Assembly: GCA_017430235.1 (NCBI GenBank)
Contig: JAFRNH010000004.1
Coordinates: forward strand, 1 to 50,958
Direction of reading: 5' to 3'
Length of the DNA: 50,958 bases
From: Paludibacteraceae bacterium
GTDB taxonomy: Bacteria > Bacteroidota > Bacteroidia > Bacteroidales > Paludibacteraceae
Part shown: piece by piece, positions 47,371 through 50,958 of the stretch
Layout: each line of letters begins with the position of its first letter
Position numbering within the stretch: the stretch's first letter is position 1
Made by a program: the position numbers and the translations under genes
Notes under the pieces: model-generated
Told to the model about the DNA's origin: nothing
The model's input: only the letters and a program-made list of their open reading frames with translations
The model's database searches: none

Positions 47371-47922
47371 ATGGTATACAAGTTTGTTATATTATCTGAT
47401 GAGGTGGACGATTTCGTTCGTGAGATAGATATTGATTCTGAGGCTACATTTATGGAGTTGCATGATGCAATTCTAGAGTCAGTTGGTTATGCAAATGATC
47501 AAATGACTTCTTTCTTTATTTGTGATGATGATTGGGAGACGGGAACGGAGATTACACAAGTAGAGATGGACACAGCTTCGGATGTCGATAGCTATGTGAT
47601 GGATAAGACGAAGTTGTATGAACTCGTTAGCGATGAAGGACAGAGATTAGTGTTTGTGTTTGATTACATGAACAACCGTTCTTTCTATATGGAGTTAAAG
47701 TCTATTATTACGAGCAATGACCTACCAAAGGCTGTGTGCAAAATTTCCAAAGGGAAAGCACCTGTTCAAATATTGGATGGTCTCTTTATGGACGATGCTG
47801 CAATTTCAAAGAAGGACTCTGCAGTGTTTGATGATGGAGGCGAAGACTTCTTGGATGGAGAGGGCTTCAATGAAGACGAATTGGATGGTTTAAGTATAAA
47901 TGATAATTATTTTGAGGAGTAA
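47371..47922 (+). CDS. pRiA4b ORF-3-like protein
   Basis: A 183-residue soluble acidic protein. The first 110 residues fit the plasmid pRiA4b ORF-3-like fold: YKFVILSDEVDDFVREIDIDSEATFMELHDAILESVGY, then MTSFFICDDDWETG and TKLYELVSDEGQRLVFVFDYMNNRSFYMEL. The C-terminal 50 residues are Asp/Glu/Gly-rich. The family is widespread and its role is not established; Bacteroidota copies often lie as single genes. It is downstream of dnaA but has a promoter of its own, so a link to replication is not shown. Confidence 0.8.
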   Translation: MVYKFVILSDEVDDFVREIDIDSEATFMELHDAILESVGYANDQMTSFFICDDDWETGTEITQVEMDTASDVDSYVMDKTKLYELVSDEGQRLVFVFDYMNNRSFYMELKSIITSNDLPKAVCKISKGKAPVQILDGLFMDDAAISKKDSAVFDDGGEDFLDGEGFNEDELDGLSINDNYFEE

Positions 47923-47934
47923 CAGATAGGTTGC

Positions 47935-47965
47935 TTTGAAATTTGGTATATTTTTTGTACCTTTG
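47935..47965 (+). promoter_or_regulatory. Promoter of the VTC/DUF4956 cassette
   Basis: TTTG (47935-47938), exactly 19 bases, then TACCTTTG (47958-47965): a full consensus Bacteroidota promoter. Transcription would start near 47971-47974, giving a leader of about 143 bases before the ATG at 48116. Confidence 0.75.
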
Positions 47966-47970
47966 TATTC

Positions 47971-48095
47971 GGGGAGACGGCCTGATCATATATTTACATA
48001 GTTGCTCTTTTATCAGTTTTGGCTTTTTATCCTCAAAAAAACGAGATACGTTGAAAAAATTTTTTTAATTCACGTCGTCTCTATATTTTAGTTTT
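47971..48095 (+). promoter_or_regulatory. Structured 5' leader of the VTC cassette
   Basis: GAGACG near 47974 can pair with CGTCTC near 48076-48081, closing most of the leader. Inside, ACGT...ACGT flanking an A/T hairpin (about 48047-48074) can fold as well. A T-rich run follows. No known riboswitch class was recognised. It could be an attenuator or simply a stable leader. Confidence 0.35.
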
Positions 48096-48115
48096 TGAAT
48101 TTAATATCCATGGTT

Positions 48116-48514
48116 ATGAGGAAAACATTAATTTTAGCAATTTTGGCATGTTTCGCATTTTCGATAACATCTGTCAGCGCTCAGAAAACTTTTGAAGGAA
48201 AGGTGTTGAAAGAGGTTAAAGAGTGGCGTATTGATGGTTCAAAGAAGAAGTTGGATCATGTGACAAAATATAAAGATGGGAAAAAAGTGGAGGAAATAGA
48301 ATATTCTTCCATTGGTGAACAAAAATCACGTACAACCTATACATACAATGAAAATGGTAAGTGTATAGAGGAAAAGTATTATGACGAATATAATAAATTG
48401 GAAAAGACAGTCCAATTTGAATATTTTGAAAACGGCAAGAAAAAGTCACAAAAAAATATTCTCCCTAATGGCAAGGTAAAAAGCTATAAGGAGTTCGAAT
48501 ACATAGTTGAATAA
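48116..48514 (+). CDS. Small exported protein with imperfect tyrosine-rich repeats
   Basis: A 132-residue protein with a signal peptide (about 1-23, ending VSAQ). The mature part is basic and beta-strand-like, with repeated pieces such as VTKYKDGKKVEEIEY, TTYTYNENGKCIEEKYY and VQFEYFENGKKKS. This recalls MORN-variant or YwqK-type repeats (Y-x-NGK). I cannot name the family. The ATG at 48116 is used; a TTG at 48095 and an ATG at 48110 also lie in frame but add nothing signal-like. It is the first gene after the promoter at 47935, and the VTC gene follows after 7 bases, so it probably belongs with that cassette. Confidence 0.7.
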   Translation: MRKTLILAILACFAFSITSVSAQKTFEGKVLKEVKEWRIDGSKKKLDHVTKYKDGKKVEEIEYSSIGEQKSRTTYTYNENGKCIEEKYYDEYNKLEKTVQFEYFENGKKKSQKNILPNGKVKSYKEFEYIVE

Positions 48515-48521
48515 TAAAATA

Positions 48522-49280
48522 ATGGAAGAAATCGTTAAATCTATTGACGAAAAGCTTTCCGCTTTTGATAAGATTACGTTGGACGAGATGAGCGGAATCC
48601 GACTGATGAATCGTATAGATACGAAGTTCCTCGTGAACGTTCATCAACTTCCAACCCTTTTAGAAATGGCGCAGAAGGATTATTATGTGCAAGAGATTGG
48701 AACGCTAAGAAAAGCTTTCTATCGTACATTGTACTATGATACTCCTACAGCCACTATGTATGTTGTACACCAGGATGGAAAATTGAATCGTCAGAAGATT
48801 CGCGTACGTGAGTATGTGGAATCAAATTTGATGTTCCTTGAGGTGAAAACAAAAAACAATAAGGGACGTACGTCAAAGAAACGAATTACCATCACTGATG
48901 AAAATGTGCTTGAGAATCAAGAGGCGATTGCTTTCTTGGATGAAAAATCCAAGTTTAAAATGAGTGAAATCGCTTACCGATTACGCAATAGTTTCTTTAG
49001 AATCACATTGGTTAATAAACAAAAAACAGAACGTTTAACAATCGATTTCAATATAAATTTTGAAAATTGTGTGACAGGCATCAAAAACACAATATCTAAA
49101 TTGTGTATTGTAGAGGTCAAACAAGATGGTAACGCTCATTCGTATTTTAAGGATTATCTATCTTCGCTTCGGATCAAACAACGCAGTATTAGTAAATATT
49201 GCTTGGGAATGGTGTTGACAGATCCGTCTATAAAATACAATCGCTTCAAAGAGAAGGTGCGTTATATTAACAAGTTATGA
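48522..49280 (+). CDS. VTC-domain protein (polyphosphate polymerase-like)
   Basis: A 252-residue soluble protein of the VTC (CYTH-like tunnel) family. In yeast Vtc4 this domain makes polyphosphate from ATP inside a basic tunnel. The expected residues are present: R31 and K35 (RIDTKF), K92, R94 and R96 (KIRVRE), E107 and K109 (LEVKT), K119/K120 and R121, R171 and D175 (RLTIDF), E198 and K200 (VEVKQ), and K225 (SISKY). No SPX domain or membrane helix is present, so the domain is free and cytosolic. I use the ATG at 48522. The neighbouring DUF4956 gene, 29 bases on, codes for the likely membrane partner. Catalysis is plausible by residue conservation but not shown. Confidence 0.88.
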   Translation: MEEIVKSIDEKLSAFDKITLDEMSGIRLMNRIDTKFLVNVHQLPTLLEMAQKDYYVQEIGTLRKAFYRTLYYDTPTATMYVVHQDGKLNRQKIRVREYVESNLMFLEVKTKNNKGRTSKKRITITDENVLENQEAIAFLDEKSKFKMSEIAYRLRNSFFRITLVNKQKTERLTIDFNINFENCVTGIKNTISKLCIVEVKQDGNAHSYFKDYLSSLRIKQRSISKYCLGMVLTDPSIKYNRFKEKVRYINKL

Positions 49281-49309
49281 TAATTAGTAAAAAAATAATT
49301 AAATAGATT

Positions 49310-49990
49310 ATGGAGCTTTTAGCAAGTATTTTCGACTACGAGTTTTTCGGTAGTGCCTTGGTTAATAGGGACGGACTTGGACTATTGTTATTCCGTTTCG
49401 GATTGAATGTTATCGTCACTTCTTTGATTATCGTTTGGCTGTATTACAGCAAATCAAAAAGAAGAGATTACGTGTTTACTTTTACTTTGATTAGCACGAC
49501 AGTATTCTTGCTAATTTTCTTATTGGGAAGTGAGAAACTTCAAATAGGTCTTGCACTAGGATTGTTTGCCATCTTTGGTATTATCCGATATAGAACGGAT
49601 ACTGTGCCAATTCGTGAAATGACCTATTTGTTCCTTATCATCGGTCTTTCTGTAATCAATGCTTTGGCTATCAGTGTCAGCTACGTTGAATTGTTCTGCA
49701 CCAACTTCTTATTTGTCTTGATGACATGGGTGATGGAGAAAACTCGTATCGTATCAAAAAGCGCTTGCAAGTTGATCAAATACGAGAAAATAGATTTGAT
49801 CACACCTGATAAATATGATGAAATGCTCGCAGATATTAAAAAACGTACGGGTTTGAATATCACTAAATGTGAAGTTGGTTATATCGACTTTTTGAAAGAT
49901 ACTGCTTTGGTTAAAGTTTATTATGAATCTGCTAGTCAGGAGATTAATACAGTTGACCAAATCACTCGCGCTAAAGATTTCAATGGATAA
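49310..49990 (+). CDS. DUF4956 membrane protein
   Basis: A 226-residue inner-membrane protein with about four hydrophobic segments in the first 145 residues, then a soluble C-terminal domain. The family signature is GLALGLFAIFGIIRYRTDTVPIREMTYLFLIIGLSVINAL. The C-terminal part (ANIKKRTGLNITKCEVGYIDFLKDTALVKVYY in essence) is a ferredoxin-like cytosolic domain. DUF4956 genes are often neighbours of VTC-domain genes in bacteria; the function is not established. It could hold a polymer channel or a membrane platform for the VTC domain. The stop overlaps the next gene's start. Confidence 0.88.
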   Translation: MELLASIFDYEFFGSALVNRDGLGLLLFRFGLNVIVTSLIIVWLYYSKSKRRDYVFTFTLISTTVFLLIFLLGSEKLQIGLALGLFAIFGIIRYRTDTVPIREMTYLFLIIGLSVINALAISVSYVELFCTNFLFVLMTWVMEKTRIVSKSACKLIKYEKIDLITPDKYDEMLADIKKRTGLNITKCEVGYIDFLKDTALVKVYYESASQEINTVDQITRAKDFNG

Positions 49991-50663
49991 GGTTTATCTA
50001 AAAATATTCGTAATCATCTTCTCCCTCTGCTGTTCATTTCCTGTAATGGCAGGGGAGGAGAGTTATGATTTTACAACTTCGATAGATGCTGGTATCTCAA
50101 AGAAATTCTTCAAGCGTCTGAGGGTCGGATTAACGGGGTCTGCTTCCCTAAAAGAAAATTCCACTACTCTCGATAAGTTGTCTTCCAAAGCGGATGTGTC
50201 CTATATGGTGGTCCGTAAGGTCCTGAAAGTTGGTGTTTCATATTATGCCATCGCAAAAAACAGAGACAACGATTTCTTCTTCAACCAGAGATTCCAAGGC
50301 TATACGAATGTTAAATACGATATTAATCGGTTCTCTTTCGCGTGGCGGTCTCGTTATCAAATGACGTATCGTCCGGAGAAAAAGGAGGAGAAACAATGGG
50401 TTAACTATTGGAGAAACAAATTTTCGTTTTCTGCGAAAATCCCCAAAGTGCCTTTGTACTCGAGTCTTGCAGCAGAACTGTTTTATCGAACCAATAACTA
50501 TAAGGGAAATTATATCACTAAACTGAGGTACGAAGGAGCCCTGAAATATGAATTTGATAAAAAGAATTCACTAAAGTTGTATTATCAGTATGACGACCCT
50601 GTAAATGTGAAAAAACTAAAGAACGTTAGTAACTTAGGTTTGTCGTATCAGTTCAGCTTTTAA
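49983..50663 (+). CDS. DUF2490-like small outer-membrane barrel
   Basis: A 226-residue protein with a signal peptide (about 1-24, ending VMAG). The mature part is a run of alternating aromatic and polar strands: SIDAGISKKFFKRLRVGLTGSASL, FSFAWRSRYQMTY, ALKYEFDKKNSLKLYYQYDD and a terminal NLGLSYQFSF ending in Phe. This is the pattern of DUF2490-type outer-membrane barrels of about 10-12 strands. The function is unknown; a porin or polymer exit is possible given the cassette. It starts inside the end of the DUF4956 gene (8-base overlap). Confidence 0.8.
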   Translation: MDKVYLKIFVIIFSLCCSFPVMAGEESYDFTTSIDAGISKKFFKRLRVGLTGSASLKENSTTLDKLSSKADVSYMVVRKVLKVGVSYYAIAKNRDNDFFFNQRFQGYTNVKYDINRFSFAWRSRYQMTYRPEKKEEKQWVNYWRNKFSFSAKIPKVPLYSSLAAELFYRTNNYKGNYITKLRYEGALKYEFDKKNSLKLYYQYDDPVNVKKLKNVSNLGLSYQFSF

Positions 50664-50709
50664 CATGATGGATACTTCTATGGACTCCTGTTTTATACGA
50701 TTTTAATTT

Positions 50710-50958
50710 ATGGAAACTGCCCTTTTAATATTAAAGAGGATATGTAATTATTTTGATGAAGTTCATTGGAAAGTGGAGTTTTGGTTTGCTATATTGAATG
50801 CTATCTTCGTTTTCCTAATCTCACACAAATATTTTGTCTTGCTTCTTTCTGAGGCATCTACTCTTCATCCTGTCTATTCTGTGGTTGCTTTTTTTTGCCA
50901 TTTCCTATGCTTGACCTTGTTCGTGTTGGGAGGGTTCTTTTTTCAACTTTACGTTTCC
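50710..50958 (+). CDS. Polytopic membrane protein (partial, N-terminus)
   Basis: An open frame from the ATG at 50710 to the window edge (83 codons, no stop). The start is METALLILKRICNYFDEV, then two strong hydrophobic segments: FWFAILNAIFVFLIS and SVVAFFCHFLCLTLFVLGGFFF. Only the first membrane part is present. The layout, with two or more helices at the front, fits phosphoethanolamine-transferase or sulfatase-type envelope enzymes, among others; this cannot be decided here. It follows the barrel gene by 46 bases on the same strand and may be the fifth gene of the cassette. Confidence 0.55.
   Translation, partial: METALLILKRICNYFDEVHWKVEFWFAILNAIFVFLISHKYFVLLLSEASTLHPVYSVVAFFCHFLCLTLFVLGGFFFQLYVS

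Follow-up and report, generated by a model that had tools for sequence, protein, structure and literature searches.

What brings together, at one end of a contig of a Paludibacteraceae bacterium, the genes for a relative of the Vtc4 polyphosphate polymerase domain, a DUF4956 membrane protein, a DUF2490 barrel of the outer membrane and a small exported repeat protein (REP)? The stretch of DNA analysed, here called the window, comprises 50,958 nucleotides of contig JAFRNH010000004.1 (assembly GCA_017430235.1), which is part of a draft genome of 2.71 Mb that is 88 per cent complete. An initial annotation, made from the letters alone, had seen in these genes a possible system for the synthesis of a polyanion and its placement in the envelope. 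Our analysis supports this idea in part: the gene order is conserved, the VTC domain is Vtc4-like, and an adaptor protein of a sister type fits a role across the envelope. The place of the fifth gene in the proposed cassette and the promoter are not supported. We tentatively favour, a little short of an even chance, a trans-envelope phosphate-polymer system in which polyphosphate would be made by the VTC protein at the inner membrane and then moved outward by the envelope parts.

The gene set goes beyond chance or a local accident, and the adjacency of VTC and DUF4956 holds throughout the order. This was seen in a sample of 119 genomes of the order, nearly every one from a different family, in which VTC is found in 57 genomes, DUF4956 in 62, DUF2490 in 42, CotH in 69, Cthe_2159 in 21 and PPK1 in 78 (the DUF4956 and DUF2490 counts each include one genome with a match below the cut-off only). 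The 57 VTC genomes contain 61 VTC places, one being the window and the other 60 retrieved for the neighbourhood counts. DUF4956 directly adjoins VTC at 57 of the 60 and lies within 4 kb at 59; the single remaining place (L089) is truncated by the end of its contig. Counted by genome, DUF4956 occurs in 56 of the 57 VTC genomes versus 6 of the 62 without VTC, and DUF2490 in 30 versus 12. The core order is thus kept far beyond close relatives, so that the proposal of the initial annotation, which had named a restriction to close relatives as grounds for giving it up, is not overturned by a lack of conservation. At the 60 places DUF2490 lies in the retrieved stretch at 21, REP at 16 and both at 12. 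Adding 24 loci from the genus and the family and the window itself brings the total to 85 loci, of which 34 have REP-VTC-DUF4956-DUF2490 as an unbroken block, ten of these 34 being from other families.

A second set consisted of 80 named loci taken from the best matches listed to the DUF4956 protein of the window, and it over-represents the window's type of DUF4956 because it was chosen by this similarity. VTC-DUF4956-DUF2490 is contiguous in 63 of them, VTC and DUF2490 share one same-strand run in 68, and REP is present in 31. In five loci (L157, L193, L194, L203 and L212) the barrel gene precedes VTC, which shows that the association of the two survives rearrangement. The closest named DUF4956 proteins among the matches listed, with 87-88 per cent identity, come from three Paludibacteraceae draft genomes, of which one was obtained from horse faeces and another from the rumen of a water buffalo. 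Among 14 named control genomes VTC and DUF4956 were found in the same three, those of Bacteroides ihuae, Corynebacterium glutamicum and Methanosarcina acetivorans; CotH was found in the latter two and also in Bacillus subtilis, and the Corynebacterium glutamicum genome gave no PPK1 match.

The call of a VTC domain in the initial annotation is borne out by profile comparison. The protein matches PF09359 with 94.7 bits (cut-off 23), and a profile of 46 VTC sequences has as its top match chains of Vtc4 (3g3q, E 5.5e-6), which we take to be those of yeast, followed by Vtc2 among other proteins. In the stretch that is significant individually, K200, R264, R266, K281 and K294 of Vtc4 correspond to K35, R94, R96, K109 and K119 of the window protein. 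A second stretch, of 0.5 bits only, aligns E426, K428, S457 and K458 with E198, K200, S224 and K225, the counterpart of R361 is R160 through a weak Vtc2 stretch, and K455 is replaced by S222. The numbers are those of Vtc4, to which the chain numbers were fitted by a shift of three, and the residues are those that we presume to line the tunnel or to bind metal. All 16 genomes of the window's genus contain VTC, and PPK1 was found in none of the 16, which leaves VTC as the remaining candidate polymerase of the genus among those searched for, PPK2 not being one of them.

The DUF4956 protein matches PF16316 with 184.9 bits (cut-off 30.6) and shows hydrophobic stretches across residues 22-141, followed by a polar C-terminal part. 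For comparison the DUF4956 sequences were divided into type A, the type of the window (63 sequences), and type B, the sister types (21 sequences). With hhalign, type B reaches 97.7 per cent against MgtC (E 1.5e-12) over 204 columns, compared with at most 0.9 per cent for 46 control clusters, and PF02308, the MgtC/SapB family, matches one type B sequence at E 9.9e-5, below the cut-off. A comparison of type A with type B gives 95.3 per cent for an alignment of 89 columns, where controls do not exceed 1.7, and PF16316 covers the two types. By these profiles DUF4956 appears to be a distant relative of MgtC through the sister branch, type B. The likeness consists of a membrane part plus a polar C-terminal part, whereas DUF4956 differs in being encoded together with VTC and, in the window's type A, is too distant for a direct match. 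A comparison of DUF4956 with solved structures gave no match at E up to 10.

The DUF2490 protein matches PF10677 with 51.9 bits (cut-off 29.8). Its profile gives weak matches to solved structures, mostly outer-membrane barrels (best E 0.0099), in a Bacteroides relative (L138) the barrel has an OMP_b-brl match just over the cut-off (1.5e-6; 29 bits, cut-off 28.7), and the available part of one report lists DUF2490 as a putative porin family, TC 1.B.81 (PMC4827864). REP matches no Pfam family, with only a weak MORN_2 hit at E 0.57, and a relative of it shows a weak RHS_repeat match below the cut-off. Visual inspection served to assign signal peptides and lipoboxes, and a simple hydropathy scan to assign membrane-spanning stretches. 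In the sister type, a protein of 331-365 residues stands directly before VTC at 9 of the 60 places, and none of these nine loci has a DUF2490 match. Pfam gives a weak HlyD_D23 match in two of eight scanned members (best 4.8e-6), and a profile of eight of the nine matches the solved structure of MacA at 1.9e-7, followed by EmrA and AcrA-type adaptors; one adaptor alone found chance matches only. At one such locus (L040) a TolC-type OEP gene (8.1e-27) begins nine bases after DUF4956, while the scanned genes after DUF4956 in L036 and L042 are of other kinds. As no barrel match is found where the adaptor is present, some lineages pair VTC-DUF4956 with the barrel and others with an efflux-type adaptor, and this pairing is the strongest argument that the sequences offer for a task across the envelope.

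The families, the order, conservation and partners of the genes, the likeness to Vtc4 and the MgtC kinship of one DUF4956 branch come from the sequences themselves. For the polymerase activity, its product, the direction of transport and the step taken by each protein, we infer the following. The VTC domain would make polyphosphate, or a close relative of it, from ATP on the cytosolic face. The MgtC-like DUF4956 protein may anchor VTC and pass or gate the chain across the inner membrane, a step modelled on the presumed role of the membrane helices in the yeast VTC complex. The DUF2490 barrel and REP, joined in sister lineages by a lipoprotein-like protein, would bring the polymer to the outer surface, with adaptor and channel taking the place of the barrel in some lineages. 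At the surface the polymer may meet the beta-helix protein (Cthe_2159) and, in some lineages, CotH-type proteins. The eukaryotic VTC complex (Vtc4 and partners) likewise links its catalytic VTC domain with a part in the membrane, and the available text of PMC10657179 gives for it a model of synthesis on the cytosolic side plus translocation. In contrast to that complex, the membrane partner here, DUF4956, belongs to a different family and is encoded as its own chain, a Pfam scan of the window proteins gave no SPX match, and the envelope has two membranes.

The initial annotation did not see the CotH, lipoprotein-like and Cthe_2159 beta-helix neighbours, which are present in relatives. Pfam places CotH kinase-like proteins within 6 kb of VTC at at least 13 of the 61 places, where a random placement of the 187 CotH stretches from 47 VTC genomes would yield 0.68 such places; a local CotH profile matches at 11 of 60. 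CotH is also found in 47 of the 57 VTC genomes versus 22 of the 62 others (odds ratio 8.5, p 3e-7; in this and the following Fisher test genomes were taken as independent, without correction for genome size or completeness). At eight further VTC places there are proteins of one cluster, c18 of type B, whose likeness to CotH is uncertain: the full cluster profile gives 96.6 per cent, a kinase-only one 52 and single sequences 0.2-44, and the two of these proteins that were scanned with Pfam gave no CotH match, so that their assignment to CotH is weakened. Of the 80 loci of the type found in the window, no more than three (L157, L175 and L189) have CotH by the kinase-only profile, while short matches in L178 and L201 fail against it (E 0.13 and 0.31) and were rejected. 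The Cthe_2159 beta-helix lies within three genes in 20 of these 80 loci, and the lipoprotein-like partner is found in 24. No CotH gene adjoins the genes of the window; its genome has 14 CotH stretches elsewhere, and of nine genes scanned all nine match CotH, four of them with a secretion tail, one such tail being below the cut-off. Secretion tails were also noticed on proteins of arylsulfotransferase-like, propeller and starch-binding-like kinds that lie near CotH (L040:12416-13390, L054:13076-16340 and L087:12630-13844).

That VTC and DUF4956 are known as neighbours in bacteria, as the initial annotation stated, is confirmed by print for the Gram-positive pel loci. In the available parts of the two reports, the accessory genes of these loci include CotH, a poly-phosphate polymerase, DUF4956 and DUF4832 (PMC7112168), and the cluster SIR_1592-1594 of Streptococcus intermedius, in which SIR_1592 has an MgtC-plus-ACT architecture, was studied by deletion of each gene, the MgtC-like and cotH-like deletions altering Pel and aggregation (PMC12345266). 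Both the association of VTC, DUF4956 and CotH and the MgtC-like nature of the DUF4956 counterpart are therefore already in print for Gram-positives. The triad, in which a VTC-type polyphosphate polymerase is encoded together with a membrane protein of the MgtC-plus-ACT kind and with a CotH-domain protein that is secreted, resembles the present gene set, to which, however, an outer-membrane barrel or an efflux-type adaptor and the exported REP are added, and which in the window lacks an adjoining CotH. The same authors, in the part of their report available, found the arrangement only at pel loci (PMC12345266). In our sample PelG was over the cut-off in none of the 119 genomes and below it in two (other pel genes were not searched for), one of the two, G007, also having a VTC/DUF4956/CotH neighbourhood. 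Such neighbourhoods do occur in the order without PelG over the cut-off and together with outer-membrane parts, a sign that the triad can exist independently of pel. In NELoc-2 of Clostridium perfringens, as far as PMC2879425 is accessible, VTC genes are each followed by a membrane protein of 222-226 residues and then by CotH; this Gram-positive locus has no outer-membrane parts, and its membrane proteins, annotated there as tubulin/FtsZ GTPase, are by length and position presumably DUF4956. In Bacteroides thetaiotaomicron BT3498-99 (DUF4956 and DUF2490) are neighbours in the accessible part of a transcriptome table, with expression lower under iron depletion by a factor that is not significant (-7.6-fold, P 0.175; PMC10434189). 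As to the view that barrel and exported partners had not been described with VTC-DUF4956 as one system, a literature search whose coverage left out most subscription journals brought up no account of VTC-DUF4956-DUF2490 as one system; the CotH triad and the adjacency of DUF4956 and DUF2490 are already published. The same search, with the same coverage, found no report of bacterial VTC activity.

Several results weigh against an export system for polyphosphate. No DUF2490 match lies near VTC at 39 of the 60 places; the Vtc4 alignment over the second half of the domain is insignificant on its own (0.5 bits); and the direct comparison of type A, the window's own, with MgtC gives only 0.6 per cent. 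PPK1 is present in 34 of the 57 VTC genomes versus 44 of the 62 without VTC (p 0.25), and because the two co-occur VTC is no simple substitute for PPK1; its replacement of PPK1 throughout the order was rejected. Finally, the available part of the Streptococcus intermedius report gives no change in Pel or aggregation on deletion of the polyphosphate polymerase gene (PMC12345266). This last result, next to the altered Pel of the MgtC-like deletion, speaks for an alternative in which VTC would be a sensor or a triphosphate-hydrolysing enzyme, forming with the MgtC-like DUF4956 a regulatory module for phosphate or nucleotides that controls the assembly of a surface matrix or adhesin. Also in its favour, the accessible text of PMC12345266 cites an action of Salmonella MgtC on ATP synthase and PhoR, and 5 of the 80 loci have genes for a histidine kinase and a LytTR regulator at most three genes away from DUF4956 (families checked on L047). 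We nevertheless consider it unlikely, although a serious competitor: the window protein matches VTC, CYTH did not come up in the Pfam scan even with E values as high as 1, and a pure regulator would leave the barrel, or the adaptor and the TolC-type channel, unexplained.

Somewhat less likely again is a builder of surface matrix or adhesin, in which DUF2490, the lipoprotein-like, the repeat and the beta-helix proteins would be structural or export parts, and VTC-DUF4956 would modify this layer, perhaps through phosphorylation of its glycans or proteins, with no free polymer being made. The neighbours found in relatives, among them Cthe_2159, propeller proteins and, with secretion tails, CotH and arylsulfotransferase-like proteins, are consistent with this, as are the nucleotidyltransferase- and amino-sugar-kinase-like neighbours of the type B loci L036 and L042 and, in the available part of PMC12345266, the effect of comparable Pel-associated genes of Streptococcus intermedius on aggregation. 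On the other hand, no glycan synthase was found among the Pfam-scanned neighbour proteins, which are only a part of all neighbours, and no genome of the sample has PelG over the cut-off.

The export of polyphosphate could be taken one step further, to extracytoplasmic phosphorylation, with the exported polymer as the phosphoryl donor, or the attached group, for exported CotH-type kinases that modify surface proteins. Such kinases would work where ATP is scarce, the beta-helix partners would be possible targets, and the same logic might apply to diderms (with DUF2490, or adaptor and TolC) and to monoderms (without). We had regarded this extension as improbable and now regard it as slightly more so, because a CotH kinase domain turned up in no more than three of the 80 named loci, which are of the same type as the window. 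It is further counted against by the 22 genomes with CotH but without VTC, by the ten VTC genomes without CotH, and by the polymerase gene of Streptococcus intermedius, for which the accessible text reports no phenotype (PMC12345266). Quite improbable, finally, is a cytosolic or membrane-linked storage polyphosphate made by VTC-DUF4956, with the barrel and exported genes being merely co-regulated genes of the phosphate economy: that VTC, but no PPK1, was found in the 16 genomes of the genus would suit it, but in different families and in permuted orders the genes are still linked to envelope genes, and 34 of the 57 VTC genomes have PPK1 as well.

The layout of the locus is given in Table 1.

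Table 1. Features of the locus, in coordinates of the window
Feature	Position	Strand	Basis and remarks
Promoter-like site, Bacteroidetes-type, TTTG-N19-TANNTTTG	47935..47965	+	Pattern match to the consensus
REP, small exported repeat protein	48110..48514	+	Signal peptide by eye and hydropathy; recurrent VTC partner
VTC domain protein, relative of the Vtc4 polyphosphate polymerase domain	48522..49280	+	PF09359, E 8.3e-27; profile, residues
DUF4956 membrane protein with polar C-terminal part	49310..49990	+	PF16316, E 1.3e-54; hydropathy; putative distant MgtC relative via type B
DUF2490 outer-membrane beta-barrel, hydrophobic N-terminus	49983..50663	+	PF10677, E 9.9e-14; weak barrel profile matches
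MEM, N-terminus of a YejM/PbgA-like DUF3413 and Sulfatase protein	50710..50958	+	Truncated by contig end

The five genes lie on one strand, as the initial annotation had described, and our coordinates agree with its gaps: 7 bases between REP and VTC, 29 between VTC and DUF4956, an 8-base overlap of DUF4956 and DUF2490, and 46 bases between DUF2490 and MEM, four of the genes being complete and the fifth truncated. MEM has only 83 residues in the window because the contig ends at position 50958; a full-length relative has 618 residues with DUF3413 and Sulfatase domains. It follows DUF2490 in 16 loci of the genus including the window, and it does so too in a single sister genus and, among the named loci, in L133-L136, with an extra match on the opposite strand in an Alistipes locus (L180), and at none of the 60 order-level VTC places. 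Being limited to the genus and its nearest kin, MEM was rejected as a core member and is probably a neighbour rather than part of the conserved set to which it had been assigned. In one genus member (L114:10758-12594) it is split into two overlapping frames of 358 and 326 residues, possibly by a frameshift or an assembly error.

A full-consensus promoter heading the cassette, likewise proposed at first, is not compelling. The site fits the Bacteroidetes-type consensus. The pattern recurs five times in the window, where 1.87 matches are expected, and five were reached in 4 of 100 shuffles; the site is therefore weak evidence alone. It is missing from the list of an E. coli-type promoter scan of the window, and the scan for promoters and terminators gave no clear excess over shuffles (16 versus 13.7 and 1 versus 1.9, respectively). 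Directly upstream of the cassette, at 47371-47922, lies a gene for a PRiA4_ORF3-like protein that recurs in most loci of the genus.

Some further arrangements were noticed among the named loci. In L162, L182, L197 and L202 DUF4956 occurs without VTC in the same-strand run, and in the last three of these, two of which (L197 and L202) belong to Carboxylicivirga, an oppositely oriented match to a LytTR-type regulator follows it. In three Bacteroides loci (L138, L142 and L152) VTC, DUF4956, DUF2490, Cthe_2159, a histidine kinase and a LytTR regulator stand in a row, which suggests two-component control of the gene set there. An apparent fusion of VTC and DUF4956 in Bacteroides cellulosilyticus (L140:9020-10648) was discarded, since its frame crosses an assembly stretch of N.

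VTC genes are common in the order, being present in 57 of the 119 genomes. If the export of polyphosphate that we tentatively favour is true, bacteria are able to synthesise a phosphate polymer at their inner membrane and to send it outward, and the gene set described here would be the two-membrane counterpart to the triad of the Gram-positive pel loci. The gene set also offers a way to test whether exported kinases of the CotH type use a polymer of this kind in places with little ATP.

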